Positions 37,133-54,599 of a stretch of DNA of 64,000 nt are shown here, piece after piece. The stretch is taken from NCBI GenBank assembly GCA_015978205.1, contig JADWMM010000029.1, positions 1-64,000 on the forward strand, read 5' to 3'. Under the pieces are notes generated by a model. It had not been told where the DNA came from. It saw nothing but the letters and a program-made list of their open reading frames with translations, and ran no database searches. Made by a program: the position numbers and the translations under genes. This DNA comes from Alkaliphilus sp. NP8. GTDB taxonomy: Bacteria > Bacillota > Clostridia > Peptostreptococcales > Natronincolaceae. Every line of letters starts with the position of its first letter. The stretch's first letter is position 1.

Positions 37133-37912
37133 ATGCAAGGAACATTATTAGAAAAAACAAGAAGGATTAATAAAATTTTACAGCAATCAGGAGAAAATAA
37201 TATTTCCTTTAATGAAGTTTGTAGAATTTTAAGTGAGATTTTAGAAGCGAATGCTTATGTAGCTAGCGCAAAAGGAAAGGTTTTAGGAGTAAGTTTAACG
37301 GATACTTCAGACTGTCCTATTATTACAGATGAAAAGACAGGAGAAAAAAGATTCCCTGAAGAATATAATCAAAGATTGTTAGCTGTAAATGAAACAGAAT
37401 CAAATATTACAAGAGATAGACTTTTATCATATTTCAAATATGATATTGATAGCTATGAAAAACTAGTTACTATTGTTCCTATAAATGGAAGCGGGCAACG
37501 TCTTGGAACTCTTGTACTAGCAAGGTTTGATAAAGAGTTTAATGAAGAAGATTTAGTTATGGTTGAATATAGCTCTACAGTAGTAGGATTAGAAATTTTA
37601 AGATCAGAATCAGAAGCTATAGAAGAAGAAGCTAGAAAAAAAGCGGTAGTTCAAATGGCTATAGGAACATTATCTTATTCAGAGTTAGAAGCAGTTGAAC
37701 ATATATTTAACGAACTAGATGGTGAAGAAGGTTTGCTAGTAGCAAGTAAAATAGCAGATCGTGTTGGAATTACTCGTTCAGTTATTGTAAATGCTCTAAG
37801 AAAATTTGAAAGTGCTGGGGTTATTGAATCAAGATCGTTAGGTATGAAAGGTACACATATTAGAATTCTAAATGACAACCTTTTAGATGAACTAAGAAAG
37901 TTAAAAAGGTAA
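37133..37912 (+). CDS. codY: GTP- and branched-chain-amino-acid-sensing repressor CodY
   Basis: 259 residues, full length. The N-terminal GAF domain ([16 protein letters not shown], then [11 protein letters not shown]) senses isoleucine, leucine and valine; the C-terminal winged helix ([20 protein letters not shown] near residue 204) binds DNA. CodY represses nutrient-scavenging and, in Bacillus, motility genes when amino acids and GTP are plentiful. AAGGAGGAG precedes ATG 37133. It lies directly upstream of the flagellar operon, as in Bacillus, but a terminator separates them. Confidence 0.97.
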
Positions 37913-37940
37913 TATCCTTGGCTAATTAAATATAAAGAAA

Positions 37941-37980
37941 AAATACTAGTTATTCTATTTTGAACAACTAGTATTTTTTA
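37941..37980 (+). terminator. Terminator after codY
   Basis: AATACTAGTT (37942-37951) pairs with AACTAGTATT (37966-37975), followed by TTTTTA. Confidence 0.8.
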
Positions 37981-38041
37981 TGTTCATATTTTATTAATAA
38001 TAACATTGTATGCTTCAGAATAAAAATAGAATTCAGTAAAT

Positions 38042-38079
38042 TAGCATTAGTGCTAGAGACCTAAATGTAGAAATTTAGG
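38042..38079. repeat. Two small dyads upstream of the flagellar promoter
   Basis: TAGCA and TGCTA (38042-38046, 38051-38055), then CCTAAAT and ATTTAGG (38060-38066, 38073-38079). They lie 26-63 bases before the candidate -35 and could be activator or repressor sites. The rest of the 318-base codY-flgB gap is A+T-rich with no gene. Confidence 0.35.
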
Positions 38080-38104
38080 AAAAAAAGAAGGAAATTAGAT
38101 GAAA

Positions 38105-38133
38105 TTGTCAAATAAATCATGTATAATCATAAT
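38105..38133 (+). promoter_or_regulatory. SigmaA-type promoter of the fla/che operon
   Basis: TTGTCA (38105-38110), 17-base spacer, CATAAT (38128-38133), each five of six matches. I saw no sigmaD-type promoter (TAAA-N15-GCCGATAA) in this gap. Confidence 0.65.
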
Positions 38134-38191
38134 ATAACAAAATGTTCATTATTACTTTTTTAGGATTTTTTTGGATAACAAATATAGTTAA

Positions 38192-38206
38192 AATTTTATT
38201 AAATTT
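38192..38206 (+). promoter_or_regulatory. Candidate CodY box before flgB
   Basis: AATTTTATTAAATTT matches the 15-base CodY consensus at 12 positions. It lies about 50 bases after the predicted transcription start and 25 before the flgB ATG, so it would act as a roadblock. In such A+T-rich DNA a chance match is quite possible. Confidence 0.35.
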
Positions 38207-38230
38207 TATAAAAAGGAAATGGAGGTAAAT

Positions 38231-38626
38231 ATGTACAATAATATTAATATTTTATCTAAGGCTTTAAATGCTTCATGGAAGCGCAATGAAGTTATTAATA
38301 ATAATATTGCAAATGCAGATACTCCTGATTTTAAAAGAAGTGATGTAGCATTTGAGAATATTTTAAAGGAAAAATTATCAAATAAAAACATAGAAGGTTT
38401 CACTACACATTCAAATCATATATCTATTAACAATAAAAGTCTTAATGATTTAGATTATAAAGTGGTGAAGAAAGATGGATTTAGTACTAGAATAGATAAA
38501 AATAATGTAGATATTGATGTTGAGATGGCAGAAAGAGCTAAAAATGAGATTTATTATAATGCTGTAACAAGTAGAATTCAAAGTAATTTCCAGAAAATAA
38601 AGCTTGTTATTAATGAAGGGAGGTAA
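38231..38626 (+). CDS. flgB: Flagellar basal body rod protein FlgB
   Basis: 131 residues. FlgB is the proximal rod subunit. It has the rod-protein N-terminal pattern (NEVINNNIANADTPDFKRSDV) and a C-terminal helix with the conserved ending seen in axial proteins. ATG 38231 follows GGAGG; the in-frame ATG at 38219 is part of that site. First gene of the fla/che operon; flgC follows five bases later. Confidence 0.94.
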   Translation: MYNNINILSKALNASWKRNEVINNNIANADTPDFKRSDVAFENILKEKLSNKNIEGFTTHSNHISINNKSLNDLDYKVVKKDGFSTRIDKNNVDIDVEMAERAKNEIYYNAVTSRIQSNFQKIKLVINEGR

Positions 38627-38631
38627 TATAA

Positions 38632-39075
38632 GTGTCAATGTTTAACTCGATCAACGTAAGTGCTTCTGGATTGACAGCTCAAAGACTTAGGATGGATATA
38701 GTTACAAAAAACATAGCAAATGTTAATACTACTAGAACTCCAGATGGTACTCCTTATAGAAGACAAGTAGTTGAATTTCAAACTAAAGATAATAATGTAT
38801 CTTTTTCAGAGTATTTAACAAGAAACAGTGAAGGATCCGCAAATTCTACTGGGGTAGAAGTATCTTCAATAAAAAATGACACTTCTCCATATAAAAAAGT
38901 ATATGAACCAGGTCACCCAGATGCAGATGAAAGTGGATATGTGTTAATGCCAAATGTGGATATAGCAACTGAAATGGCGAATATGATTTCAGCCACTAGA
39001 GCATATGAAGCCAATGTAACTGCTTTAAATGGAACTAAAAGTATGGCTCTAAAGGCTTTGGAAATTGGTAAATAA
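38632..39075 (+). CDS. flgC: Flagellar basal body rod protein FlgC
   Basis: 147 residues. Rod subunit with the typical opening MFNSINVSASGLTAQRLRMD and NIANVNTTRTPDG, and a C-terminal helix ATEMANMISATRAYEANVTA. The start is GTG 38632, seven bases after GGGAGG; ATG 38638 two codons on is possible. Confidence 0.96.
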   Translation: MSMFNSINVSASGLTAQRLRMDIVTKNIANVNTTRTPDGTPYRRQVVEFQTKDNNVSFSEYLTRNSEGSANSTGVEVSSIKNDTSPYKKVYEPGHPDADESGYVLMPNVDIATEMANMISATRAYEANVTALNGTKSMALKALEIGK

Positions 39076-39089
39076 AGGAGATTTGTATA

Positions 39090-39392
39090 ATGAAGGTTAG
39101 TGGTTTAACTCAAATTAATAATATTGCTTTTGATTTAAAGGATACTTCTACAAATAAAATATCGAAGAGCACAGAATCTTTTTCTGATTTTTTAAAAGAT
39201 TCATTGGCCAAAGTAAGTTCTCTTGAGAAAGAATCTGAAGAACATACTTTAAAATTAGTAACTGGTGAATCAGAAAATATACATGAAGCTATGATTGCAG
39301 CGCAGAAAGCCGATATAGCTCTTCAATTTACTATGCAGATAAGAAACAAAGTATTAGATGCATATAATGAAATTATGAGGATGCAGATTTAA
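39090..39392 (+). CDS. fliE: Flagellar hook-basal body complex protein FliE
   Basis: 100 residues. FliE joins the MS-ring to the rod. The C-terminal half carries the family pattern SENIHEAMIAAQKADIALQF and RNKVLDAYNEIMRMQI. AAAGGAG precedes ATG 39090. fliF overlaps closely downstream. Confidence 0.94.
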   Translation: MKVSGLTQINNIAFDLKDTSTNKISKSTESFSDFLKDSLAKVSSLEKESEEHTLKLVTGESENIHEAMIAAQKADIALQFTMQIRNKVLDAYNEIMRMQI

Positions 39393-39416
39393 TTGCAGCA
39401 AGAGAGAGGTGAGTTA

Positions 39417-40955
39417 ATGTCGGATTTCTTAATTCAGATAAAAAATCAACTTGATGAGTACTTTCAAAAGTTTGAAAAAAAACAGAAAATTATATTTATA
39501 TCAAGTACTGTTTTTACAATATTAGCTTTAACAGGAATAATTTATTATTTTACAAGGCCAGAGTATATAGAAATATATAAAAATTTAGAACCTAAGCAAA
39601 CAGGTGAAATATTAGAAACGTTGAAAGAAAATAATATACAAGCAAAAATTGGGCAGACGAGTGGAAGTATATTGGTTTCCAAAAATGATGAAAAAAGAGC
39701 TCAAATAGTGGTTGCAACCAAAGAACTTCCAACAGCTAAGTTTTCCTTTGATGATGCTTTTTCAGGAAACTCTTTTATGATGACAAGTGAGGAAAGATCT
39801 CAACGGTATATATATGCCCTTCAAAATCATTTATCTAGCATAATTGAAGAACTAGATGGAGTAAAAAGAGCTTCAGTAACATTAGTTGTGCCAGAAAGTT
39901 CAGGATTTGTTATTAATGATAATCAAAATGACCCTAAGGCATCTGTAATGCTAGATTTATCAGGGAACACTATTTTAAATGAAAACGCTATAAATGGAAT
40001 TGCCATTTTAGTTTCTAATGCTGTAGAAGGACTTATGCCTGAAAATGTTACAATACATGGAAGTGATGGAAGTGTATTAAATCAAAGTTTAGAAAGTGAT
40101 TCGAATATTTTTAGTTCAAATAATAATATGGTATTGCAACAAACTGTAAAACAAGATTTAGAGAAAAGTATAACGGATTTTTTATCTAGTGTTTATGGAT
40201 ATGGAAATGTTTCAGTTATGGCTAATGTTAAATTGAATTTTAATAGTGAAGTAACTGAAATAAGAGAATTTACACCGCCCATTGAAGGTGAGACTACCGG
40301 AATACCTAGAAGCTTACAAGAGCTGAAAAAAACAATACCAGAAGGAATTCAAGGTGGAATACCTGGTACGGATACTAATGCAGAAGATATTCCTCAAAAT
40401 GTAGAAGGTGATGAACAGTATACAGCATATTCAGAAGCTAGTAGAACTATTAATTATGAAATTAATGAATTACATAAGAAAATTGTTGAAGCACAAGGAC
40501 AAGTTGAAGATGTTACTGTAGCAGTTTTTCTTAATAGAGTAGCTTTAGAGGAAGGTGATTTAAGTGAAGATGAGAAAGAAGAACTGATCGATATAATATC
40601 AGCAGCTGCAGGTTTAGATACAAAAGTAGTTCAAGTGGGAGTTCAAGAATTTAATAATACACCTGATAGTAATGATGAATATGCATCTACTGATGGCTCA
40701 TTTAACAACATTCCACTATGGATGATAGGAATTTTATTAGCAGGTATTTTAGGAACTACATATTTTGTTCTTCGTAGAAAGAAAAAAGATGTAGAACTAG
40801 AAGATTTAGAAGGTGAAATGATTATTCCTGATCCTATTGAAGAAATTAATTTAGATTCATCTGGATCTCAAACAAAACAGCAAATTGAAAAATTAGCAAG
40901 CAAAAACCCTGAAGGTGTAGCACATCTTTTAAAAAATTGGTTGAATGAAGATTAG
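39417..40955 (+). CDS. fliF: Flagellar MS-ring protein FliF
   Basis: 512 residues. FliF forms the membrane MS-ring on which export apparatus and C-ring assemble. Two membrane segments are seen, near residues 22-42 (IIFISSTVFTILALTGIIYY) and 438-456 (PLWMIGILLAGILGTTYFV). The periplasmic ring-building domains lie between, and the C-terminal tail (NPEGVAHLLKNWL) binds FliG. ATG 39417 is supported by GAGAGGTGAG; a TTG at 39393 is less likely. Confidence 0.96.
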   Translation: MSDFLIQIKNQLDEYFQKFEKKQKIIFISSTVFTILALTGIIYYFTRPEYIEIYKNLEPKQTGEILETLKENNIQAKIGQTSGSILVSKNDEKRAQIVVATKELPTAKFSFDDAFSGNSFMMTSEERSQRYIYALQNHLSSIIEELDGVKRASVTLVVPESSGFVINDNQNDPKASVMLDLSGNTILNENAINGIAILVSNAVEGLMPENVTIHGSDGSVLNQSLESDSNIFSSNNNMVLQQTVKQDLEKSITDFLSSVYGYGNVSVMANVKLNFNSEVTEIREFTPPIEGETTGIPRSLQELKKTIPEGIQGGIPGTDTNAEDIPQNVEGDEQYTAYSEASRTINYEINELHKKIVEAQGQVEDVTVAVFLNRVALEEGDLSEDEKEELIDIISAAAGLDTKVVQVGVQEFNNTPDSNDEYASTDGSFNNIPLWMIGILLAGILGTTYFVLRRKKKDVELEDLEGEMIIPDPIEEINLDSSGSQTKQQIEKLASKNPEGVAHLLKNWLNED

Positions 40956-40965
40956 AGGTGAACAT

Positions 40966-41985
40966 ATGGCAAAGAAAGTGTCTAAAAGTGATATTACAGG
41001 AAAACAAAAAGCTGCTATATTACTTATTAGTTTAGGACCAGAATATTCTGCTCAAATTTTTAAACATTTGAGCAATGAAGAAATCGAAGAACTTACTTTA
41101 GAAATAGCAAATATGCGAAAGGTATCTCCTGAAGAGAAGGAAAAAGTGTTAGAAGAATTTCATGATGTATGCTTAGCTCAAGAATATATTTCTGAAGGTG
41201 GCATTAATTATGCTAAAGATGTACTTGAGAAGGCATTAGGATCTCAAAAAGCCATGGATATTATAAATAAGTTAACAGCTTCTCTTCAGGTTAAACCTTT
41301 TGATTTTGCTAGAAAAGCTGATCCAAAGCAACTGTTGAATTTCATTCAAAATGAACATCCGCAAACAATTGCATTAATATTAGCTTATTTATCTGATTCT
41401 CAATCAGCACAGATATTATCTGCTTTACCTCAAGAGAAACAATCTGAGGTAGCACAAAGAATAGCTATTATGGAAAGAACTTCTCCTGAAGTTATCAGGG
41501 AGGTTGAGTTGGTATTAGAACAAAAACTTTCTTCTTTGGTTAATCAAGATTATACAAGTGCAGGTGGAATACAATCTATTGTAGACATACTGAACTCCGT
41601 TGATAGAGGTACAGAAAAAAACATTATGGATACGTTAGAAATTCAAGATGTAGAGTTAGCAGAAGAAATTAAAAAGAGAATGTTTGTATTTGAGGATATT
41701 ATTACTCTGGACAGTACTTCTATTCAAAGGTTTATTAGAGATATTGATAATAAAGAGTTGGCAGTAGCATTAAAAGGTGCAACTGATGAAGTTGCTGATA
41801 TTATTTATGCTAACATGTCTAAACGTATGGCAGAAATGATTAAAGAAGATATGGACTTTATGGGACCAGTTAGATTGAAAGATGTAGAAGAATCTCAACA
41901 AAAAATAGTTAATATTATTAGGAAATTAGAGGAAGCAGGAGAAATTATTATTTCTCGTGGTGGAGGAGATGAAATAATTGTCTAA
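40966..41985 (+). CDS. fliG: Flagellar motor switch protein FliG
   Basis: 339 residues. FliG couples the C-ring to FliF and the stator. The middle domain EHPQTIALILAYL and the C-terminal torque helix (RFIRDIDNKELAVALKGA) with charged residues that face MotA are present. ATG 40966 follows AGAGGTGA. Its end overlaps fliH by eight bases. Confidence 0.97.
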   Translation: MAKKVSKSDITGKQKAAILLISLGPEYSAQIFKHLSNEEIEELTLEIANMRKVSPEEKEKVLEEFHDVCLAQEYISEGGINYAKDVLEKALGSQKAMDIINKLTASLQVKPFDFARKADPKQLLNFIQNEHPQTIALILAYLSDSQSAQILSALPQEKQSEVAQRIAIMERTSPEVIREVELVLEQKLSSLVNQDYTSAGGIQSIVDILNSVDRGTEKNIMDTLEIQDVELAEEIKKRMFVFEDIITLDSTSIQRFIRDIDNKELAVALKGATDEVADIIYANMSKRMAEMIKEDMDFMGPVRLKDVEESQQKIVNIIRKLEEAGEIIISRGGGDEIIV

Positions 41986-42778
41986 GGTATATAAGAGGAA
42001 TGAAATTGTTTTAGGCCAAGGGAAATTAGTTGATCTTCAAATTAATCCAATAATAAAACTGAATAATGATAAAAGAGAACAAAGAATTACAGACGATATT
42101 ATGGACGATTATGATAAAGATTTAAGTGAAAATGTTGAAACAATTATAAATAAAGCCAAAGAAGAAGCAAAACAAATATTAGAAGATGCAGAATTAGAAT
42201 TTAATAAAATTATAAATAAAGCAAAAGAAGAAAAAAATGATATTATTTCCCAAGCTTATACAGAAGCTAACAAAATATTAGAAAGTGCAAGAGAAAAAGG
42301 TTATAATAAAGGTCTAAAAACAGGTAAAGATAAAGGTTTTAAAGAAGTAGAGTCTTTAATTGAAGAAACTAAAACAATAAAGCAGGATATATTAATAGAA
42401 AAGAGATCTACTATTCAATCTTTAGAAAATGAAATAATAAATTTAATTATTACATCTATAGATAAAATATTAGATTATGAATTAGAAAAAGATCACTCTT
42501 TACTACTGAACCTTGTTGAAAAAGGGATAGAAAAATGCACATATACTGAAAGTCTAATAATACGTGTTAACCCAAATGATTATGAAGTAGTTGATTCATC
42601 AAAAAATAGAATATATCTGATGACTGAAGGTATAAGTGGTATAGAAATAAAAAAAGATCCTGGTTTAGAAAATGGTAGTATTATAATTGAAACAGAATCT
42701 GGAACAGTAAATGCAAGTTTAAAAACACAGATAGCCCAAATTGAGAATGCATTCTATAATGTTTTAAAAGGCGAGTGA
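41978..42778 (+). CDS. fliH: Flagellar assembly protein FliH
   Basis: 266 residues. FliH is the stator-like regulator of the export ATPase FliI. A long Lys/Glu/Ala helix (about residues 40-130, with repeated NKAKEEA/NKAKEEK segments) precedes the C-terminal domain (LIIRVNPNDYEVV). The probable start is TTG 41978, with GGAGGAG about ten bases before and no good ATG in frame. Confidence 0.9.
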   Translation: MSKVYKRNEIVLGQGKLVDLQINPIIKLNNDKREQRITDDIMDDYDKDLSENVETIINKAKEEAKQILEDAELEFNKIINKAKEEKNDIISQAYTEANKILESAREKGYNKGLKTGKDKGFKEVESLIEETKTIKQDILIEKRSTIQSLENEIINLIITSIDKILDYELEKDHSLLLNLVEKGIEKCTYTESLIIRVNPNDYEVVDSSKNRIYLMTEGISGIEIKKDPGLENGSIIIETESGTVNASLKTQIAQIENAFYNVLKGE

Positions 42779-42784
42779 TGTTAT

Positions 42785-44107
42785 ATGAACACTATTTCAT
42801 TAGAAAAGTATAGAACAGAATTGGAAAAATTAGATTTGATTAAATATACAGGTTATGTTTCACAAGTTATAGGTCTAACAATTGAATCTGTAGGTCCAGC
42901 TGTAAAAATTGGTGAAATATGCAGAATCTATACTTTAAAAGGACAGACACCTATATTAGCAGAAGTTGTTGGATTTAAAGAAAAAAAAGTTTTATTAATG
43001 CCTTTAGGGGAAATGGAAGGAATTGGGCCTGGAAGTAAAGTAGAGGCATTAGGTAGCACTTTGGAAGTAAAAGTAGGGGAACAACTATTAGGTAGAGTTT
43101 TAGATGGTTTAGGAAATCCAATAGATGGAAAAGGACCTTTAGATACTAATAAAGCTTATCCTGTTGTAGCATCACCACCTAATCCTTTACTTCGTGCTAA
43201 AATAGAAGAACCATTAAGCCTTGGTGTTAAAGCAATAGATGGACTTCTTACTTGTGGTAATGGTCAAAGAATAGGTATTTTTGCAGGTAGTGGAGTTGGT
43301 AAAAGCACATTACTTGGAATGATAGCTAGAAATACTCAAGCAGATATAAACGTAATAGCTTTAATTGGTGAGAGGGGAAGAGAGGTTAGAGAATTTATAG
43401 AAAATGATCTGCAAGAAGATGGACTTAAACGATCAGTACTTATTGTGGCAACATCTGACCAACCAGCTTTAATTAGAAATAAAGGGGCACTCCTTGCTAC
43501 ATCAATAGCTGAATACTTTAGAGACCAAGGAAAAAATGTAATTCTTATGATGGATTCATTAACAAGATTTTCTATGGCGCAAAGGGAAGTTGGACTGGCT
43601 ATTGGAGAGCCGCCTGTAACAAGGGGATATACTCCTTCAGTTTTTGCCTCTTTACCTAAATTATTAGAAAGATCCGGTACATCAGATAAAGGGTCTATAA
43701 CAGGATTATATACAGTACTTGTAGATGGTGATGATATGAATGAACCTATAGCAGATACTGTACGTGGTATATTAGATGGACATATTGTTTTATCTAGAAA
43801 AATAGCTAATAAAAATCATTATCCTGCTATCGATGTTTCTGCTAGTGTTAGTAGGGTAATGCCTAATATTGTAAGTAAAGAACATGTAGAAAAATCTAAT
43901 ACAATTAAGGAACTATTATCTACGTATAATAGTTCGGAGGATTTAATTAATATAGGGGCCTATGTTAAAGGAACAAATAAAAAAATAGATGAAGCTATTA
44001 ATAAAATAGATGATATAAATGAGTTTCTTAAACAAGATCAACAAGAAAAAACTGAATTTAGTGATGTATTTGATGCTATGGAACAAATTGTATTTCAGGA
44101 GGGATAA
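42785..44107 (+). CDS. fliI: Flagellum-specific ATP synthase FliI
   Basis: 440 residues. FliI is the export ATPase, related to F1-beta. GRVLDGLGNPIDGKGP, Walker A GSGVGKST near residue 170 and Walker B VILMMDSLTRF are present, then the GEPPVTRGYTPS segment. It starts six bases after fliH and is followed by fliJ two bases on, the usual FliHIJ unit. Confidence 0.97.
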   Translation: MNTISLEKYRTELEKLDLIKYTGYVSQVIGLTIESVGPAVKIGEICRIYTLKGQTPILAEVVGFKEKKVLLMPLGEMEGIGPGSKVEALGSTLEVKVGEQLLGRVLDGLGNPIDGKGPLDTNKAYPVVASPPNPLLRAKIEEPLSLGVKAIDGLLTCGNGQRIGIFAGSGVGKSTLLGMIARNTQADINVIALIGERGREVREFIENDLQEDGLKRSVLIVATSDQPALIRNKGALLATSIAEYFRDQGKNVILMMDSLTRFSMAQREVGLAIGEPPVTRGYTPSVFASLPKLLERSGTSDKGSITGLYTVLVDGDDMNEPIADTVRGILDGHIVLSRKIANKNHYPAIDVSASVSRVMPNIVSKEHVEKSNTIKELLSTYNSSEDLINIGAYVKGTNKKIDEAINKIDDINEFLKQDQQEKTEFSDVFDAMEQIVFQEG

Positions 44108-44109
44108 TA

Positions 44110-44550
44110 ATGGACAAGTTTAACTTTCGATTTGATACTATTTTAACCACTAAAGAGAAAATCGAAGATGATAAAAAGAATAAACTTGGAGTTTCAATGA
44201 AGAAGCTTGCAATTCAGCGGGAGCATCTTGACAAACTGTTTCAGAAAAAAAACGATATAATTGTTCAAATAGACCACAAATCACAGAACAAAGTAAAAGT
44301 AAAAGAACTTAGAAATTTATATACTAATTTAGATAGAATACAGACAATAATAAATAACCAAACAAATGTAGTAATGGAACAAGAGTCAGAAACTCAAAAT
44401 AGAAGAAAAGATTTAGTAGAAGCTTCAAAACAAAAGAAAGTATTTGAAAAATTAAAAGAAAAAGATTTTGAAGAATTTAAATATAGCCAGTTTAAAAATG
44501 AAATTGCTTTAACAGATGAGATAATTTCTTATAAAGCTGCAAACAGATAA
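44110..44550 (+). CDS. fliJ: Flagellar export chaperone FliJ
   Basis: 146 residues, almost entirely predicted coiled coil, rich in Lys, Glu and Gln (FNFRFDTILTTKEKIEDDKK at the start). FliJ fits the FliI hexamer core as gamma does in F1. Sequence is poorly conserved, so the call rests on size, coiled coil, opening motif and position after fliI. AGGAGGG precedes ATG 44110. Confidence 0.9.
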   Translation: MDKFNFRFDTILTTKEKIEDDKKNKLGVSMKKLAIQREHLDKLFQKKNDIIVQIDHKSQNKVKVKELRNLYTNLDRIQTIINNQTNVVMEQESETQNRRKDLVEASKQKKVFEKLKEKDFEEFKYSQFKNEIALTDEIISYKAANR

Positions 44551-44560
44551 AGGTGATTAA

Positions 44561-45796
44561 ATGAGCATAAAGAAAGAGAAAAATAAAAACAAGTCTATTA
44601 TTAAAACTTTATCAATTATACTAATATCTTTCATTACTTTACCTATTTTAGTCATTAGCATTATGTATTTTAGTAATAAAAATTTTAAAGATAATGCTAA
44701 TCAATTTTTAGCCACATTACCTGGAGGTATAGGAGGGTACTTTGAGTCTATTCCTACCAAAAATGAGAGGGCACAAATAAAGAAAAATATTGCACATCAT
44801 TATATAAACTTAGACGTGGAAAGAATTGTTGACAAATTACTTATTGTAGAGGGAGAAGATGAAGAATTATATAATGAGCTAATAATTTTAATGAGTAAAG
44901 AAAACAGTAGAAAAATGGCTAAAGTAAATGAGAAATTAAGATTGTCGAATTTAAAAAATGATCCTTTAAATAGAATTCTAAACCAGATAGACGAGGAAAA
45001 CAAAGAGAAAATTAGTGAACTGCAAAAATATTATACATCTTTAAATCTTGCTGAAAGTATTAAAGAAATAGAAAGAACCTATTCTACAAATGAAATAACA
45101 ACTGAAGAGGTAACAGGTTTATTTAAAAACTTAGATTCTAGTGAAGCAGCAGAAATTTTATTTTATTTGGATAAAGAGTTGACTAGAAAAATAAAATTTA
45201 ATTTATCTAATAGATCTTTAAAAAATATTGAAAAAGAATTAGAAAAAATAGAATCAAACAATCAGAAGCTACAGAATTTAGCGCTAGTATATGAGAATAA
45301 AAATATAGAAGAAGCAGTAACTGAAATTGGTAATTTAGAAACATACAACATTAATGAACTTGCATTTATATTTAAAAATTTATCTTTACCTAAATCTTCT
45401 AAAATATTATCTAAAGTTAACGATAATGAATTTATGTTAACTTTATTAGAAGAAATAAATCATCTACAAAAGCTTTCAGATGAAGATAAACTTACTTCGC
45501 CTGCTATTACAAAAGGTATATCTATATATAAAGAATATGATAAAAAAATAATGGAATTAGCGTCTATATATGAAAAAACTTCTACTGATGATTTAGTTTT
45601 AATGCTAGAAAGCATGTTAAATAGAAATGAAGTATATCAAAGACATAGCTTAAGCGAAACTGAAGAGATTATATTTACTGAAGAAGAACTAGTTATTGAT
45701 GTTTTGAATCAACTTAAAATTAATAAAGTGTCGGAGATATTAGAAAAAATGGATGAAGACAACAAGTCGACTTTGTCTAAGAAATTGTTAACTTAA
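44561..45796 (+). CDS. YlxF/MotE-like flagellar protein with four internal repeats
   Basis: 411 residues at the ylxF position between fliJ and fliK. An N-terminal membrane segment (about residues 14-36) is followed by an extracytoplasmic part. I see four related units, about 77-126, 154-207, 240-290 and 333-401. Each has an aromatic Y near its start and a later segment such as GLFKNLDSSEAAEILFYLD or AFIFKNLSLPKSSKILSKVN, like MgtE N-domain or FliG superhelix repeats. MotE proteins, with one such domain, chaperone the stator MotB. This one is roughly twice the usual length. AAAGGTG precedes ATG 44561. Confidence 0.75.
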   Translation: MSIKKEKNKNKSIIKTLSIILISFITLPILVISIMYFSNKNFKDNANQFLATLPGGIGGYFESIPTKNERAQIKKNIAHHYINLDVERIVDKLLIVEGEDEELYNELIILMSKENSRKMAKVNEKLRLSNLKNDPLNRILNQIDEENKEKISELQKYYTSLNLAESIKEIERTYSTNEITTEEVTGLFKNLDSSEAAEILFYLDKELTRKIKFNLSNRSLKNIEKELEKIESNNQKLQNLALVYENKNIEEAVTEIGNLETYNINELAFIFKNLSLPKSSKILSKVNDNEFMLTLLEEINHLQKLSDEDKLTSPAITKGISIYKEYDKKIMELASIYEKTSTDDLVLMLESMLNRNEVYQRHSLSETEEIIFTEEELVIDVLNQLKINKVSEILEKMDEDNKSTLSKKLLT

Positions 45797-45842
45797 TATT
45801 TAAATTTTAATATATTTTATATATAGAAAGGGGGTGAAAAAT

Positions 45843-47306
45843 ATGAATACGATGAACATACATAATTCCTTTAATTCAAATAAAAATTTCACATCTAAAA
45901 ACACTGCTTTTTCAAGAAAAGATAATAAGTTGTTTTCTGATATTTTTAGAAATGAAAACAAAACTTTGAATTTTAAAAATGATACCAGGAATGAATTTAA
46001 GAGCATAAGTGAAGATAATAAACAAAATATACATAGTTCCAATAAATCAAAAAATAGCTTTAAATCTGTTTTGAATAAGAAAAATGTTGATGAACACCAA
46101 ACAATAAATGAAGAAAAAAACATTTCAAATTCTGAAAACACTGATGAAAAAAAATATAATAAAAAAGTAGACAAACTTGATAATATACAAGCAGATGAAA
46201 CTATTGAGAAAAGTGAAAGTAATCTATCAAACGAGATTATAGCCTTGATTGAAAGCTTGATGAAAACTGATTTAATAGATTTATCTCAGTTGCAAAAGGA
46301 TATTAATGTTGAAATTAAGTTAGATGAAACTCAAATTGAAGCATTAAACAACTTAAAAGAAAAGCTAAGTGTTTTATTAGAAACAGTAGATTTAGAATTA
46401 AATCAAGTGTTTAAAGAAAATATTAAAAAAGCTATAGAACTTTTAAATGAGATTACTGGTCAATCATCTGTAGATGTGGAAAGTAATAAATTAGTATCTA
46501 GTAAAGATGTTGAAGAAATATTAAGTATTATAGAAGATATAAAAACAAATATGAATCTTAATTCAAACAAACCCATTTCTAATCAAAAAAATAACTTTAA
46601 TGAGTTGATTAGTAACAACAAAGATCAATTACAAAATACAGAAATTGAAAAAAACAATGGTGATGAGGAAAATGTGCAAGTATCTGAGGATATAGTAGAT
46701 GAAGATTCTGTAGAAAATTTTAAAAAACTCTTAAGTAATGATAATAGTACAAAACCAAATTTTCTAAAACAACATTCTAATAATAATAGTATAATACAAA
46801 ATCAAAATGCGTTAGAGATAAAGGCAGAACTTCAAAGTCAAAAAACAGATGTATCTATTCTTGAAAATGAAACAATTGATCACAAGCAATTTATCAATGA
46901 AGTTGCACAAAAAGCCAGTGTTTTTATATCTGAAAATAAAAATGAAATGAGTATACAATTAACCCCTGAAAAACTTGGAAAATTATCTATTAAGATAGGA
47001 TTAAACGATGGGACAATGACAGGAAAAATATATGCAGAAAACTACTCTGTTAAAGAAATAATAGAAGCAAACTTAAGTCAACTTAAAGACGCTTTAGAAG
47101 AAAAAGGGGTAAATATTGGAGGCTTAGAAGTAAATGTAGGACATGATTCACAAAGTTCTGACAGAAATTTATATCATTCAAGTTTTAATAGTAGGAAAAA
47201 GCATAAAGGAATTCCAATATCTAATAATGTGATTGGAACATTCGAAGAAAAATCAGAAATAATAAATCCATATTTAACTACTAATAAGTTTGATGGATTA
47301 GTTTAG
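45843..47306 (+). CDS. fliK: Flagellar hook-length control protein FliK
   Basis: 487 residues. The N-terminal 300 residues are Asn/Lys/Ser/Glu-rich and of low complexity, as expected of the molecular ruler part. The C-terminal hook-length domain is clear near residue 370: [19 protein letters not shown], then [17 protein letters not shown]. FliK measures the hook and switches export specificity through FlhB. ATG 45843 follows AAAGGGGGTG; the GTG at 45834 is in that site. Confidence 0.92.
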
Positions 47307-47317
47307 GAGGTAATAAA

Positions 47318-47758
47318 ATGCCAAATGTTTCAGGAGTAAATGAAACTCAGCAGTATTCTAATAATAATGAGCAAATAAAACAGACAAAAGGTAATTTAGA
47401 TAAAGATGCTTTCTTACAACTTTTAGTTACACAATTGCAAAACCAAGATCCATTAAATCCAATGGAAGATAGAGAGTTTATTTCTCAAATGGCACAATTT
47501 AGCTCATTAGAGCAAATGCAAAATTTAAATGATACTTTTATGGTAACCCAAACTACTATAATGGACCATATTTTAAAAATGAATAATAATTTAGTAGAAA
47601 GTCAAACGAATATAGTAGAGCAATTAGAGAAATTGAACGAGGCTTTAGATAATACAAATGTGCAAGAGCCAAATAATGATCTAGAGGAATTTAAGTTAGC
47701 ATTAAATGATGTGAATAAAAGAAAAGCTCTAAATTATTATGATAGCTTTAATGCTTAA
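47318..47758 (+). CDS. flgD: Flagellar hook capping protein FlgD
   Basis: 146 residues. FlgD caps the growing hook. The conserved N-terminal region [22 protein letters not shown] and [18 protein letters not shown] are complete. The protein is short, as in Bacillus, lacking the Ig/tudor C-terminal domains of enterobacterial FlgD. TTAGGAGG precedes ATG 47318. Confidence 0.95.
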
Positions 47759-47820
47759 TGATTTGGTAAACGTTGAAATAGAGTTAAAGAAAAACAATAA
47801 TACTATAATTGGAGGTAAGA

Positions 47821-47844
47821 ATGGCGTTTCAGTATAGTATATAA
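47821..47844 (+). CDS. Possible 7-codon leader peptide
   Basis: ATG GCG TTT CAG TAT AGT ATA TAA, preceded by GGAGGTAAGA with tight spacing, lies 20 bases before the next gene. It may be a translated leader, a decayed gene start or chance. No family recognisable. Confidence 0.3.
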   Translation: MAFQYSI

Positions 47845-47864
47845 GCTCTAAAGGAGGAACTTAT

Positions 47865-48245
47865 ATGTACTCAATTAAAGCCAATCAACTTTCTATTGCT
47901 CAAAATAGGAATCAAAATACTAATATAAACAGACTTAAAAATCAAAATTCTAACTTCGAAGCATTGTTAAAAAACGAAATACAAAATAACCAAAAAATTA
48001 AATTTTCTAAACATGCAATGGATAGATTGAAAGAAAGAAATATAAAGTTGTCTGATGTTGAAATAAATAAATTAAATAATGCTGTTAATAAAGCTGCAAA
48101 AAAAGGCATTAAAGAAACTTTAATAATAATGGATAATAAAGCTTTCATAACGAGTGTAAAAAATAAAACAGTTATTACAGCAGCAACGGAAAAACAATTA
48201 AAAGAAAATGTGTTTACAAATATAGACGGTGCTATATTTGTATAG
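47865..48245 (+). CDS. Flagellar operon protein, TIGR02530 family
   Basis: 126 residues. The middle segment KFSKHAMDRLKERNIKLSD and the later ITAATEKQLKENVFTNIDGA match the small family always found between flgD and flgE in Clostridia and Bacilli. The family's function is not established; an export chaperone-like role has been guessed from position. AAAGGAGGA precedes ATG 47865. Confidence 0.85.
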   Translation: MYSIKANQLSIAQNRNQNTNINRLKNQNSNFEALLKNEIQNNQKIKFSKHAMDRLKERNIKLSDVEINKLNNAVNKAAKKGIKETLIIMDNKAFITSVKNKTVITAATEKQLKENVFTNIDGAIFV

Positions 48246-48297
48246 GCTGGACCCTTAAAGGGAAGCTTTTTGTTTCCGACCGAAAGAAGAAACAAAA
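48246..48297 (+). promoter_or_regulatory. Structured flgE leader
   Basis: A small CCCTT-A-AAGGG stem (48252-48262) is followed by a 9-bp stem TTTTGTTTC/GAAACAAAA (48268-48276, 48289-48297) with a loop rich in GACCGAAAG. The G+C content of the loops stands out from the flanks. It ends 28 bases before the flgE start. No known riboswitch recognised. Confidence 0.45.
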
Positions 48298-48325
48298 CAC
48301 CAAAATTTAAAGGAGGTAATTTATT

Positions 48326-49621
48326 ATGATGCGTTCAATGTTTTCAGCAGTATCTAGTTTAAAGGCACATCAATTAAGAATGGATGTAATAGGTAATAAT
48401 ATAGCAAATGTTAATACAGTAGGATTTAAATCATCAAGGGTAACATTTCAAGAAGTTTTTAACCAGACATTAAAGGGTGCTGGAAGACCACAAGAAGGTG
48501 GCCGTGGAGGAACAAATCCACAACAAGTAGGACTTGGTATAAGTGTAAGTTCTATGGATACTTTTCATACAAGAGGATCTGCAGAACGAACAGATAAAAA
48601 CACAGATGTAATGATAAATGGAGACGGATTTTTCATGGTTTCCGACTCAAAAGACGGAGCAAATAAGAACTATACTAGAGCAGGTAATTTTTATGTTGAT
48701 ACAACTGGAAATTTAGTAACAGCAAATGGATACCATGTACTTGGTTATAATATGGATGAAGACGGAAAATTTACAGATGAATTAGGTGGAATTCAAATTT
48801 CTAAATCTGTATCTAGTGAGCCTAAAGCAACAGATAAAGTTGCATTTGATGGAAATATAAACAGTGACATAGATCCAGCAACAACAGCGGGAGCAGGAAA
48901 TGATGGAGGTACTTTTAATAGTACTATGAAAGTGTTTGATAGTTTAGGAAATGAGCATGACATTGAATTGCAGTTTGAAAGAATAGATGATGGAAGCAGT
49001 AGTACTAGAAGCTTTGAAGTTAGTGTAGCTTCAGTAAATGGGGAAACTACTGCTACAATAGGAGGTGGACCAATTACATTAGATTTTGATGAAGCAGGGA
49101 AATTAACTGCTACCAGCGATGATGAACTAAATTTAAAAATCGACGATGGAGCAGGTTCGTTTGAGGGTGCAGCTGCATTAGATATAAACATAGATTTATC
49201 AGACATTACTAATTACGCTGCGGAATCTGATGCAACAGCTTCAGTAATAAATGGTTATTCAAGTGGTAAATTAGAAGAATATGCAATATCTCCGGTAGGA
49301 GAAGTAGAAGCAGTGTTTAGTAATGGTGATGTGAAGATTATTGGGAAAATTGCTCTAGCTAACTTTAATAATCCTGCTGGATTAGAAAAAACAGGTTCTA
49401 ATATGTACAGACAAACATCTAACTCAGGACAACCACAGTTTGGACATGCAGGTATGGGTGGATTTGGAGAGTTAAACCCAGGAAACCTGGAAATGTCTAA
49501 TGTGGATTTATCTAGAGAGTTTACTGACATGATTACTACACAAAGAGGTTTCCAGGCTAATTCGAGAGTCATAACAACAAGTGATGAAATGTTGCAAGAA
49601 CTAGTTAACATGAAAAGATAA
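48326..49621 (+). CDS. flgE: Flagellar hook protein FlgE
   Basis: 431 residues. FlgE builds the hook. The N-terminal axial motif (MDVIGNNIANVNTVGFKSSR) and C-terminal EMSNVDLSREFTDMITTQRG and NSRVITTSDEMLQELVNMKR are complete; the centre is the surface-exposed D2 region, rich in Asp, Gly and Ser. AAAGGAGG precedes ATG 48326; the next codon is also ATG. Confidence 0.96.
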   Translation: MMRSMFSAVSSLKAHQLRMDVIGNNIANVNTVGFKSSRVTFQEVFNQTLKGAGRPQEGGRGGTNPQQVGLGISVSSMDTFHTRGSAERTDKNTDVMINGDGFFMVSDSKDGANKNYTRAGNFYVDTTGNLVTANGYHVLGYNMDEDGKFTDELGGIQISKSVSSEPKATDKVAFDGNINSDIDPATTAGAGNDGGTFNSTMKVFDSLGNEHDIELQFERIDDGSSSTRSFEVSVASVNGETTATIGGGPITLDFDEAGKLTATSDDELNLKIDDGAGSFEGAAALDINIDLSDITNYAAESDATASVINGYSSGKLEEYAISPVGEVEAVFSNGDVKIIGKIALANFNNPAGLEKTGSNMYRQTSNSGQPQFGHAGMGGFGELNPGNLEMSNVDLSREFTDMITTQRGFQANSRVITTSDEMLQELVNMKR

Positions 49622-49635
49622 ATAAAACAATCCTT

Positions 49636-49662
49636 CCTCACTGGTAGTTTTAACCAGTGAGG
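49636..49662 (+). promoter_or_regulatory. Hairpin covering the swrD ribosome-binding region
   Basis: CCTCACTGGT (49636-49645) pairs perfectly with ACCAGTGAGG (49653-49662), with outer pairing TCCTT/AAGGA beyond an internal loop. The right arm and its extension (GGGGAAAGGA) hold the ribosome-binding site of swrD. It can hide that site; no T-run follows, so it is not a plain terminator. Confidence 0.6.
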
Positions 49663-49677
49663 GGAAAGGATGATAGT

Positions 49678-49878
49678 ATGATATATTTAACAAAAATTAA
49701 TAGGAAGCAATTTGTTTTAAATGTGGATTTAATTGAAATTATTGAAGAAACTCCAGATACAATTATTACATTAACTAATGGTCATAAAATAGTAGTGATT
49801 GAAACACTACAGGATGTTATAAATAAAGTTATAAATTATAAAAGAAAAATATACATAAAAGATATATTAAAAACTTAA
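49678..49878 (+). CDS. swrD: Flagellar protein SwrD (FlbD family)
   Basis: 66 residues with MIYLTKINRKQFVLNVDLIE and PDTIITLTNGHKIVV, typical of the FlbD/SwrD family. In Bacillus SwrD raises flagellar motor torque and is needed for swarming. Here it is followed directly by motA and motB. ATG 49678 lies seven bases after AAAGGA, which is inside a hairpin. A longer frame from 49657 crosses that hairpin. Confidence 0.9.
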   Translation: MIYLTKINRKQFVLNVDLIEIIEETPDTIITLTNGHKIVVIETLQDVINKVINYKRKIYIKDILKT

Positions 49879-49969
49879 TATATAAATATTTTTAAAAGTT
49901 TAAACTCATAGTTTCAAACATATATTAGTTAAATTTTGGCAAAATTCTTATAGGAATAGAGGTGTAAAA

Positions 49970-50755
49970 GTGGATATATCAACAATAATAGGTATAATAG
50001 TAGGAATAGGGTTTGTTATAGGAGGAATTTTGATAGATGGATCATTATTTAATTTCCTTGATCCAGCAGGAGGTTTGATAGTTATTGGTGGCACAATTGC
50101 TGCTACTTTTGTGGCATATCCTTTAAAAAATGTTCTAGAAGCATTTAAAGTCGCGACAAAGGCCTTTACTAATAAAGTAGAAGATCCAAATGAAATTATA
50201 GTGACTATTAATAAGCTTGCAAACACTGCTAGAAAAGAGGGATTATTAGCATTAGAAGAAGCATCAGAAGAAATAAACGAACCATTTTTAAAAAAAGGAT
50301 CAATGTTAATAGTTGATGGAACAGATCCAGAACTTGTAAGAAACTTATTAGAAACAGAATTATCATTTATTGAAGAGAGACATAAAAATGGTCAAAGTAT
50401 ATTTGAAATTATGGGAACCTTTGCTCCAGCTTTCGGTATGGTTGGTACATTAATAGGACTTATAAATATGCTAACAAAATTAGATGATCCTAGTGTAATT
50501 GGACCAAGTATGTCTGTTGCTTTAGTTACTACTTTTTATGGTACTTTATTAGCGAATTTAGTATTTATTCCAATTTCGAATAAGCTTAAACTACGTAGTA
50601 GGGAAGAAATATTAAAAAAGGAAATTATGGTAGAAGGCTTATTATCAATTCAAGCTGGAGAAAACCCAAGAATAATTGAAGAAAAACTCAAAGCATTTTT
50701 ACCACCTAAATCTAGACAAGGAATTAGTAGTAATAAGGAGGGTGTTGAGGCGTAA
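49970..50755 (+). CDS. motA: Flagellar motor stator protein MotA
   Basis: 261 residues, four membrane segments. The opening IGIIVGIGFVIGGILIDG, PAGGLIVIGGTIAATFVAYP and the later FAPAFGMVGTLIGLINML and VALVTTFYGTLLANLVF fit MotA, the proton-type stator subunit surrounding MotB. Ion type cannot be proved from sequence. GTG 49970 follows AGAGGTG. The stop overlaps motB by one base. Confidence 0.96.
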   Translation: MDISTIIGIIVGIGFVIGGILIDGSLFNFLDPAGGLIVIGGTIAATFVAYPLKNVLEAFKVATKAFTNKVEDPNEIIVTINKLANTARKEGLLALEEASEEINEPFLKKGSMLIVDGTDPELVRNLLETELSFIEERHKNGQSIFEIMGTFAPAFGMVGTLIGLINMLTKLDDPSVIGPSMSVALVTTFYGTLLANLVFIPISNKLKLRSREEILKKEIMVEGLLSIQAGENPRIIEEKLKAFLPPKSRQGISSNKEGVEA

Positions 50756-51507
50756 TGGCAAGAAAAAGAGGATCAAATAATGAGGAACCAAAACAAGGAT
50801 CTCCTGCATGGATGAATACATACGGAGATATGGTAACACTACTACTTTGCTTTTTCGTTTTGTTATTTTCTTTTTCAGAAGTAAATGCCAAAAAATTTGA
50901 TGCACTTATTGAATCTTTTCAAGGTTCGTTAGGTATATTAGATTCAGGTACAGCGATTGAAAGTGATGACCTTATAACTGAAGCTATGAAAAACGATTTA
51001 ACTACTAACCAGAAACAAGAATTGGAAGATTTTAGAAATCTACAAGAATCATTAGAAGATTACCTGAAAAATTCCGGTCTAGAATCTGACATTTTAGTTA
51101 CTCACGAAAATGCAGGCCTTGTTTTAAGATTTAAAGATAATGTTTTATTTGATCCAGGACAAGCTATATTAAAACAACGTTCAAAAAAAATTTTAACTGA
51201 CATTGTCACTTTTTTAGAGGCCCCAGAATTCATTGATAAATCTATAAGAGTGGAAGGTCATACAGATACTGTGAGATCAGATCCTACATCATTATATCCT
51301 ACAAACTGGGAGCTATCGGCAGGGAGAGCTTCTAATGTAGTTAGATACCTAGTAGAAGAGTCAGACTTGGAACCAAAGAGACTTGCAATAGCAGGTTATG
51401 GGGAATATCATCCTATTGCTCCAAATGATACTGCAGAAAACAGATCTAAAAATCGAAGGGTTGATATTGTAATATTAAGATCAGAATATATTATTTCTGA
51501 GTCTTAA
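50755..51507 (+). CDS. motB: Flagellar motor stator protein MotB
   Basis: 250 residues. One membrane helix after PAWMNTYGDMVTLLL, in which the Asp25 is the ion-binding residue, then a C-terminal OmpA-like peptidoglycan-binding domain (VEGHTDTVRSDP, SAGRASNVVRYL, GYGEYHPIAPND, RSKNRRVDI). AGGAGGGTG precedes ATG 50755, coupled to motA. Confidence 0.96.
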   Translation: MARKRGSNNEEPKQGSPAWMNTYGDMVTLLLCFFVLLFSFSEVNAKKFDALIESFQGSLGILDSGTAIESDDLITEAMKNDLTTNQKQELEDFRNLQESLEDYLKNSGLESDILVTHENAGLVLRFKDNVLFDPGQAILKQRSKKILTDIVTFLEAPEFIDKSIRVEGHTDTVRSDPTSLYPTNWELSAGRASNVVRYLVEESDLEPKRLAIAGYGEYHPIAPNDTAENRSKNRRVDIVILRSEYIISES

Positions 51508-51539
51508 GAAACTTAAAATTAAAAGACAGGAGTGAAATT

Positions 51540-51956
51540 ATGGACCTTAAAAAAACATTTATTTATATATCAATTGGCTTTTTACTATCTGCATTATTCT
51601 TCGGGATATTCTTTGCTTTTATGAACAACAATCAGTCTGCTGCTAATTCAAAAGCAATTAAAACCTATGAATATAATCTAGGAGAATTTTCTACTAATTT
51701 AGGAAATACAAGAAGCTACTTTAAAGGGAGTATAATATTAGAAGTTACTAATGAAAGTTTAATATCTATAATTGAAGAAAAAAACGTTCAAATTAGAGAT
51801 GGAATTATTTCGATTTTGATTGAAAAGAATTCAGAAGAAATACTAGATGTAAAAGGACAAAGTAAATTAAAGAATGAAATTTTAGAAACAGTATCAAGTA
51901 TAATAGATTCAGATGGAATTAATAATATATATTTTGCTGACTATATTGTTCAATAA
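51540..51956 (+). CDS. fliL: Flagellar basal body-associated protein FliL
   Basis: 138 residues. An N-terminal membrane helix (about 6-28, TFIYISIGFLLSALFFGIFF) and a periplasmic domain containing EYNLGEFSTNLGN and YFKGSIILEVTNE. FliL associates with the stator and affects torque. The call rests on size, topology and position between motB and fliM. GGAGTG precedes ATG 51540. Confidence 0.88.
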   Translation: MDLKKTFIYISIGFLLSALFFGIFFAFMNNNQSAANSKAIKTYEYNLGEFSTNLGNTRSYFKGSIILEVTNESLISIIEEKNVQIRDGIISILIEKNSEEILDVKGQSKLKNEILETVSSIIDSDGINNIYFADYIVQ

Positions 51957-51979
51957 GCAGAAAAATAGGAGGTGAAGAA

Positions 51980-52975
51980 ATGTCAGATATTTTATCCCAA
52001 ACTGAAATAGATGACCTTCTTAATGCATTAAATACTGGTGAGGTTGATGTTGAAGAAATATCAGACGATAAGCCTGAAAAACGAATAAAAAAATATGACT
52101 TTAAAAGTCCTAAAAAGTTAGCTAAAGATCAGTTAAAAACATTACAAATAATACATGAAAACTTCACAAGAACTTTGAATACTTTTTTATCTGGCTATCT
52201 TCGTACCTATGTAAAAACCGAAGTTGTAAGTGTGGAAGAGCTTTCTTATTATGAATTTAACAATTCAATTGTAAACCCAGCTGTTCTTTCAGTTGTTGAC
52301 TTTTATCCTTTGGAGGGTCAAATAATTTTAGACATGTCTTCGACTATAGCCTTTGTACTAATCGATAGAATATTAGGAGGGCAAGGGAAGGCAATAGAAG
52401 AAAATCGTTCATTTACAGAAATAGAATTAACTTTAATTAAAAAATTCATAAAAGAAATAACTTCTTTAATGATAGATCCTTGGGAGAATGTAATAGAACT
52501 TGAGCCTAAACTGGATAAAATTGAAACTAACTCTCAGTTTGCTCAAATAGTATCGCCTAATGAAACTACAGCACTTATCACATTGAATTTGAAGATAGGC
52601 GAGGTTCAAGGTTATTTAAATATATGTATTCCCCATATTGTAATAGAACCTATTCTTTCAAAATTAAGCACTCAATATTGGTTTTCTAGTATAAACAAAA
52701 AATCTAACGAAGAAAGCAAGGGAATTTTAGAAAAAAGAATTACAAATAGTTCCGTAGAAGTAGCAGTAGAACTTGGACATACTCAAATAACTGTTAAAGA
52801 CTTTTTAGAATTACAATTAGGTGATGTAATTCCACTAGATAATACTACAAATGGAGAATTAGAAATTAAAGTTGGAAATAAACATAAATATTTTGGAGCT
52901 CCTGGTACTATGAAAAACAAAACAGCTGTTAAAATTACAAAAATAGAAAAGAAAGGAGATGAAACATATGAGTGA
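51980..52975 (+). CDS. fliM: Flagellar motor switch protein FliM
   Basis: 331 residues. The N-terminal CheY-P binding peptide (MSDILSQTEIDDLLNAL) is followed by the CheC-like middle domain (VDFYPLEGQIILDMSS, IDRILGGQGK, EIELTLIKKFIKEIT) and a C-terminal SpoA domain (VELGHTQITVKDFLELQLGD). AATAGGAGG precedes ATG 51980. The end overlaps fliY by eight bases. Confidence 0.97.
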   Translation: MSDILSQTEIDDLLNALNTGEVDVEEISDDKPEKRIKKYDFKSPKKLAKDQLKTLQIIHENFTRTLNTFLSGYLRTYVKTEVVSVEELSYYEFNNSIVNPAVLSVVDFYPLEGQIILDMSSTIAFVLIDRILGGQGKAIEENRSFTEIELTLIKKFIKEITSLMIDPWENVIELEPKLDKIETNSQFAQIVSPNETTALITLNLKIGEVQGYLNICIPHIVIEPILSKLSTQYWFSSINKKSNEESKGILEKRITNSSVEVAVELGHTQITVKDFLELQLGDVIPLDNTTNGELEIKVGNKHKYFGAPGTMKNKTAVKITKIEKKGDETYE

Positions 52976-54113: not shown

Positions 54114-54151
54114 AGGATATAAATTATTTACATGAATTTTAATTTTATAAA

Positions 54152-54181
54152 TTGACGAATTATGCAATATACTGTTAATAT
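54152..54181 (+). promoter_or_regulatory. Internal promoter before cheY
   Basis: TTGACG (54152-54157), 18-base spacer, TAATAT (54176-54181) with an extended TGT. It lies in the 122-base gap before cheY, one of the longest gaps in the operon, and could give extra transcription of the export and chemotaxis half. Confidence 0.5.
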
Positions 54182-54235
54182 ATATTTATCATTTAATATT
54201 ATTTATTAGATATATATATAAGGGAGGAAAAATTA

Positions 54236-54598: not shown

Positions 54599-54599
54599 A

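Follow-up and report, generated by a model that had tools for sequence, protein, structure and literature searches.

The E-ring of the bacterial flagellar motor is built from FlgY or its homologues, which include FlbB and probably MotE, with YlxF as an apparent homologue in B. subtilis, according to a 2026 review (PMC13023049). There, the C-terminal head of the FlgY family is assigned to MgtE_N, and the listed proteins are 172-264 residues long. The review also describes 34 heads from 17 dimers around the MS-ring β-collar of C. jejuni, reports that flgY adjoins fliJ or fliK in many lineages, and names the stacking of dimeric ARM-like heads into a ring of variable symmetry as a point for study (PMC13023049). 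In FlgY, a long helix (residues 15-116) precedes a four-membered head of 56 residues (PMC11870540), and FlbB and FliF interact in pull-downs (PMC11750108). The title of PDB entry 9a67, 'Integrative model of FLIF-YLXF by crosslinking MS and deep learning', points by its wording to FliF as a partner of YlxF. PMC10090944 was considered as the source of that model and discarded, as its main text mentions neither YlxF nor FliF.

Here, we analysed a window of 64,000 nucleotides (positions 1 to 64,000 of contig JADWMM010000029.1) from Alkaliphilus sp. NP8, which encodes within a flagellar gene cluster a putative E-ring-type protein with four head-like units (44561-45796, + strand). The open reading frame (ORF) is intact, with 411 codons, an ATG at 44561, an AAGGTG motif just 5' of it and a stop codon ending at 45796. 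It lies 10 bases downstream of fliJ (44110-44550, + strand; Pfam FliJ, 4.9e-12) and upstream of fliK (45834-47306, + strand; Pfam Flg_hook, 5.2e-20), and it thus occupies the position beside fliJ and fliK in which E-ring family genes are often found. Pfam analyses of the 20 proteins encoded from 37133 to 54941 identified CodY, two rod proteins, FliE, FliF, FliG, FliH, FliI and FliJ upstream of the gene, and FliK, FlgD, a putative flagellar protein, FlgE, MotA, MotB, FliL, FliM, a CheC/FliN-type protein, a response regulator and FliO downstream. The MS-ring protein FliF, which we propose below as the binding partner, is encoded at 39393-40955 (+ strand; Pfam YscJ_FliF and YscJ_FliF_C), and the Pfam scan located the genuine FliG at 40945-41985. 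The putative flagellar protein, of 126 residues (47865-48245; Pfam Flagellar_put, PF12611), is coded between flgD and flgE.

The location of the gene between fliJ and fliK, an order also found at three other loci (L086-L088), could be read as a sign that its product belongs to the export or hook-length apparatus. We give this reading hardly any credence, since E-ring genes of other lineages often share those neighbours (PMC13023049), and the fold and homology of the protein are those of an E-ring head. YlxF-type genes similarly follow FliI- and FliJ-like ORFs by visual inspection (L064, L065).

The initial annotation, made by eye, had proposed four diverged copies of one unit, at about residues 77-126, 154-207, 240-290 and 333-401. 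We built a family profile from 40 full-length homologues, including the protein of the window, collected from 60 genomes, and compared it with itself using HH-suite. Residues 67-289 aligned with residues 144-400 with a probability of 97.4%, over 220 columns at 21% identity. This alignment shifts three units onto the next three, and hence denotes four units. After removal of the membrane part the self-alignment scored 92.4 over 219 columns; the reversed profile gave 31.5 (probability 13%), and none of 60 column shuffles exceeded 26.7. The stretches paired by the profile alignment are 67-127, 144-206, 227-289 and 320-400, whose ends agree within one residue with those seen by eye. In pairwise hhalign comparisons, units 2 and 3 (96.1%), 2 and 4 (91.1%), 3 and 4 (92.6%) and 1 and 2 (89.8%) matched one another, none of these scores being reached in 100 shuffles. 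The matches of unit 1 with unit 3 (11.0%, 0 of 100 shuffles) and with unit 4 (6.9%, 1 of 100 shuffles) are weak, and unit 1 therefore rests mainly on its link to unit 2. The proposed motif F-x-N-L-x4-(A/S)-(A/S)-x-I-L held in part. It is exact in unit 2 (FKNLDSSEAAEIL) and unit 3 (FKNLSLPKSSKIL) and approximate in unit 4 (LNQLKINKVSEIL), and it is absent from unit 1. Altogether, these analyses confirm that the 411-residue protein contains four diverged tandem units. Divergence is greatest in unit 1, which is also the least certain head-like one.

A relation of these units to the YlxF/MotE head had also been suggested, together with the existence of single-head relatives, and both ideas found support. 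We generated a single-head profile, A4, from six sequences (L064-L069) of three kinds with near-duplicates, with no four-unit protein among them. They are 185-196 residues long and come from other families of the class, and each combines a single head with a membrane helix and a stretch resembling a coiled coil. A4 matched unit 4 at 98.0% (residues 328-409, in register), unit 3 at 97.2% (263-301) and unit 2 at 95.5% (167-223), and unit 1 at only 53.3% (68-126), with 0 of 100 shuffles in each case. With a profile of 44 single-head sequences, the values were 97.7%, 95.7% and 92.7% for units 4, 3 and 2, respectively, while a match at 104-153, overlapping unit 1, reached 5.8%. The best matches of units 2 and 3 to the canonical head are offset by roughly half a unit, as would arise if that head were itself composed of two similar helix pairs, and consequently the head boundaries in these units are unsettled. 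When 148 genomes of the host order were searched with A4, the four-unit protein was found, with E values of 6.7e-6 (205-301) and 5.8e-4 (373-409).

The anticipated MgtE_N/FliG-like nature of the units was borne out as well. Pfam MgtE_N scores 27.7 bits on the whole protein against a cut-off of 25.9; the match is spread over the protein, no single stretch passing E 0.01. This domain was detected at E ≤ 0.01 in 20 of 25 members. When the organism's own genome was scanned with MgtE_N, two different ORFs, of 471 and 458 residues, appeared in the list and the four-unit protein did not. FliG_M reaches 16.6 bits, below its cut-off of 25, and Pfam revealed neither FliG_N nor FliG_C in the protein, which thus lacks the domain set of FliG. 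Against the PDB, the family profile matched FliG best (E 3.4e-5), and two unrelated entries more weakly. In the order, the four-unit profile gave second matches in ORFs of 340-351 residues in 6 genomes, which we take for FliG because of their length and place. The protein had no match in PHROGs and nothing above noise in NCBIfam, and a scan of the genome contigs with the single protein sequence yielded no relative. In MgtE channels, CBS domains and a membrane domain of several helices follow the N domain. The four-unit protein harbours only MgtE_N in Pfam and one membrane helix, and it therefore does not qualify as such a channel. Judging from profile comparisons, it is probably a divergent homologue of the E-ring family (YlxF/MotE/FlgY/FlbB), with weak homology for unit 1.

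An AlphaFold2 model built with 18 sequences (mean pLDDT 87.7, pTM 0.62) is an all-helical array of heads with no single long coiled coil in its 411 residues, as opposed to the one coiled coil that would have spoken against repeats. The membrane helix is followed by a short conserved linker (residues 39-66; 44675-44758, + strand) with the family pattern N..L..LPG..G.YF...PT..E and predicted short helices at 40-50 and 56-62. Unit 1 (residues 67-131; 44759-44953, + strand) comprises helices 67-82, 86-99, 101-114 and 116-131. Unit 2 (135-214; 44963-45202, + strand), which overlaps the best MgtE_N stretch (177-227), comprises helices 135-160, 163-175, 181-190, 193-202 and 205-214, and unit 3 (217-305; 45209-45475, + strand) helices 217-246, 249-256, 264-272, 276-284 and 289-305. 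Unit 4 (312-410; 45494-45790, + strand) comprises helices 312-339, 342-355, 374-384, 387-396 and 399-410, with a predicted β hairpin inserted at residues 358-373 (45632-45679, + strand; DSSP strands 358-363 and 369-373). Units 2 to 4 each open with a helix of 26-30 residues, the longest outside the membrane helix.

Foldseek yielded no match at E ≤ 0.001 for the whole model. Alignment of the Foldseek candidates with VIA-align ranked MgtE 2zy9 first (Z 10.2, rmsd 1.8 over 76 residues, 150-231), followed by FliG and further MgtE chains, although Z scores under about 13 may be due to chance for helical repeats. Chain B of 9a67 is also listed (Z 7.8 over 112 residues), but its rmsd of 23.4 indicates a piecewise match. 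Folded alone, unit 1 is helical (pLDDT 84.4), and its model is closest to a designed protein (Z 6.6), with FliG at 6.1 over 41 residues and MgtE at about 5. Helical repeats easily give such middling structural matches, and together with the weakness of unit 1 this could mean that the protein is a generic helical solenoid resembling E-ring heads by composition only. That reading is already disfavoured and seems extremely improbable to us: column shuffles and reversed profiles stay below the observed scores, except for 1 of 100 shuffles for units 1 and 4, and the independent single-head profile A4 picks out the four-unit protein.

As anticipated, there is one membrane helix. Hydropathy and charge in the 40 members place it at residues 17-37 (44609-44671, + strand), within AlphaFold2 helix 8-38. 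All 40 members have this single hydrophobic helix, with a mean hydropathy of at least 2.09, and no later 19-residue stretch exceeds 1.59. The number of Lys and Arg residues is higher before than after the helix in 35 of the 40, equal in 4 and lower in 1, and net charge agrees with an N-in orientation in 29, is equal in 2 and opposes it in 9. By the charge rule, therefore, the four-unit protein is probably N-in with its repeats outside the membrane, the arrangement of the E-ring family. The same Lys and Arg count gave 54 of 86 for single-head and longer relatives, among which the rule is less clear. This topology bears on the proposal that the repeats form a cytoplasmic switch scaffold that co-stacks with FliG or FliM. 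The reach of the family profile to FliG (in the PDB and in the presumed FliG ORFs of the 6 genomes) and the FliG structures among the top structural matches speak for it. Set against them are the positive-inside rule and the review's placement of single-head relatives as functioning outside the inner membrane (PMC13023049). The repeats probably face outside, making cytoplasmic switch proteins unlikely partners, and we find such a scaffold very improbable.

Compared with the described systems, the four-unit protein combines familiar and distinct traits. YlxF-type single-head proteins (188-196 residues; L064, L066, L068) share with it the N-terminal membrane helix and the MgtE_N/ARM-like C-terminal head, here unit 4. 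They have one head after a long coiled-coil-like region, whereas it has four units after a short linker (about 39-66). C. jejuni FlgY and B. burgdorferi FlbB share the ARM-like head, and the membrane anchor is as in FlbB. However, FlgY (172 residues) and FlbB (205 residues) have one head and a long helix and their ring is seen by cryo-electron tomography, while the four-headed form is known from its sequence. In place of the roughly 100-residue dimeric coiled-coil helix between anchor and head, and of one head per chain of about 170-265 residues, we found four units in 411 residues. Alpha-proteobacterial MotE shares the head fold and the extracytoplasmic location but is 179-264 residues long with one C-terminal head, and two of the three listed MotE proteins were studied as partners of MotC or MotK. 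The MgtE N domain and the FliG middle domain have the fold of each unit (2zy9 compared with unit 2); as MgtE is a magnesium channel and FliG a cytoplasmic switch protein, this likeness is one of domain only.

The proposed survey of repeat number showed that the architecture is not confined to a single genome. Of 148 genomes of the host order, 73 have the four-unit form at full length (best match from profile position ≤11 to ≥401 of 413), with an in-frame TAG in one of the 73 genes. FliF was found in 97 of the 148 genomes, 72 with both genes and 25 with FliF only; the one genome with a four-unit gene and no FliF match is 68% complete. In 70 of the 73, the four-unit match begins 4.3-4.9 kb beyond the point where that of the FliF C-domain begins, both on one strand, and in the other three there is no FliF match on the contig of the four-unit gene. 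A4 matched in 50 of the 148 genomes, and none of these matches lies in an ORF of single-head size (170-250 residues).

Of 291 genomes in a class-wide sample, 12 gave matches to the four-unit profile, with four-unit proteins in four cases (one of them, L062, from outside the order), single-head proteins in six and matches judged to be due to chance in two. The latter (L063, L070) were dismissed, as only the N-terminal membrane segment matched and the ORFs appear unrelated by eye. The phylum sample of 299 genomes contained 31 with matches, of which only that of the window is full length, and single-head proteins are common in both samples. Class proteins of about 241-312 residues often gave two HMM pieces per ORF. 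A profile built from 39 of 42 such proteins, leaving out L125, L165 and L169, yielded one clear head (99.3%) and a second match of only 1.4%, and we thus rejected the idea that they are two-headed. Most of the proteins at L146-L164 and L166-L185, from other families of the class, are in this size range and have one clear head, preceded by a stretch with only weak head-like pieces. L165 (748-1632, genome G623), a 294-residue protein from the same phylum, also has tandem heads but only two, which match the single-head profile at 96.5% and 96.2%; a stretch resembling a coiled coil is visible by eye. It is a separate case, possibly an intermediate or a parallel one.

We examined descent with a FliI tree built on 309 columns and 69 rows, 67 of them different. 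A branch (SH-aLRT 92; FastTree 0.938) sets the 29 four-unit rows of the order apart, with the sampled genomes devoid of the gene (14 rows, two changes) outside it. L062 stood apart from the other four-unit rows in a first tree, with weak support (0.283), and joining it to their clade was not rejected (p-AU 0.513). The distribution in FliI phylogeny thus fits a single origin of the four-unit form. We fetched the gene slots of 15 of the 25 FliF-only genomes, one of which (L079) is cut by its contig. The other 14 harbour one FliK-sized ORF between the FliJ position and FlgD and otherwise only small overlapping ORFs of 71-101 residues. This FliK-sized ORF was confirmed as FliK in 13 of them (5 by phmmer, 8 by Pfam; L085 left out). 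The FliF-positive genomes without the gene (L071-L078, L080-L085) belong, in the FliI tree, to flagellar lineages apart from the four-unit lineage. Simple recent loss of the gene was rejected since the FliI tree places these genomes outside the four-unit branch, so its absence may be old instead.

FliF collar sequences differ between genomes with and without the gene (91 FliF rows; among the 18 pieces from L071-L088, 6 are not represented). In all 25 FliF-positive genomes without the gene, the C-domain match of FliF extends to model position 147, an end point shared by only 5 of the 72 with it; in most gene-bearing genomes this match stops earlier. We did not retain co-evolution of FliF with the four-unit gene as an explanation, because the gene-less rows fall outside the four-unit branch, and the contrast is therefore confounded by descent. 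FliF of gene-bearing genomes (39393-40955 and L186-L263) often has, by eye, a collar motif around PPIEGE. With the same confounding, this part of the collar is a candidate contact region.

We favour the view that this protein is a four-headed E-ring homologue that has dispensed with the long spoke and docks on the FliF MS-ring collar, to which as a whole we assign a probability of roughly 0.6. The N-terminal helix would anchor the chain, and the short conserved linker would lead to four heads located between membrane and cell wall, with the head array docking on the outer face of the MS-ring. Unit 4, being the closest to the single head of the relatives, would be the likeliest to contact FliF or the ring. 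Units 1 to 3 would occupy the place of the relatives' coiled-coil spoke. By stacking beside unit 4 they might allow a single chain to reach across several ring positions; alternatively, they might form a rigid radial arm that replaces the spoke and extends to the membrane anchor and the stators. The dimerization and spoke geometry of FlgY and FlbB cannot be transferred to this protein, as the long dimeric coiled coil is missing from the AlphaFold2 model. The protein may in this way form a ring in contact with FliF and act as a bearing or a stator scaffold.

The initial annotation had envisaged a scaffold for several stator or switch partners. Of this, the switch part is unlikely given the charge distribution, and the first partner to expect is FliF, not the stator alone, because the review places the family in the E-ring around the MS-ring (PMC13023049). 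The four heads could nevertheless serve as a stator chaperone or adaptor, holding MotB, FliL or another partner to recruit or stabilize stators with no ring being formed. The genes motA, motB and fliL are in the same cluster, and the review reports that S. meliloti MotE binds and stabilizes MotC and that C. sphaeroides MotE interacts with MotB2 (PMC13023049). The same review leans to a structural part, as MotE-sfGFP localizes at flagella in the absence of MotK, MotA2 or MotB2 (PMC13023049), and no TPR partner of the PflA/MotC/MotK kind is encoded among the 20 neighbours scanned with Pfam (37133-54941). We thus consider a pure adaptor role unlikely, and docking on FliF remains our preferred reading. 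In the whole genome, OmpA-domain matches number one, MotB.

The four-unit architecture is real and conserved; it belongs to a known family and is undescribed within the literature searched. The suspicion that it was new is in keeping with the absence of any multi-headed E-ring protein from the portions of open-licence papers covered, supplementary tables excluded, and some may already figure, unremarked, in lists of FlgY homologues. Evidently, the number of heads per chain can differ, from one in the single-head relatives to two in L165 and four in the protein of the window. It is conceivable, though we would hesitate to put it at even odds, that some E-rings are made of concatenated subunits, with four linked heads per chain or with heads replacing the spoke. 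If so, their stoichiometry and the geometry of the rotor bearing would be unlike those of the one-head dimers known so far. The E-ring is newly recognized and its role is open. As four linked heads hold neighbours in cis, one structure could directly show how heads stack on one another, and the absence of the spoke helix from a protein that has kept the heads raises the question of which part is essential.
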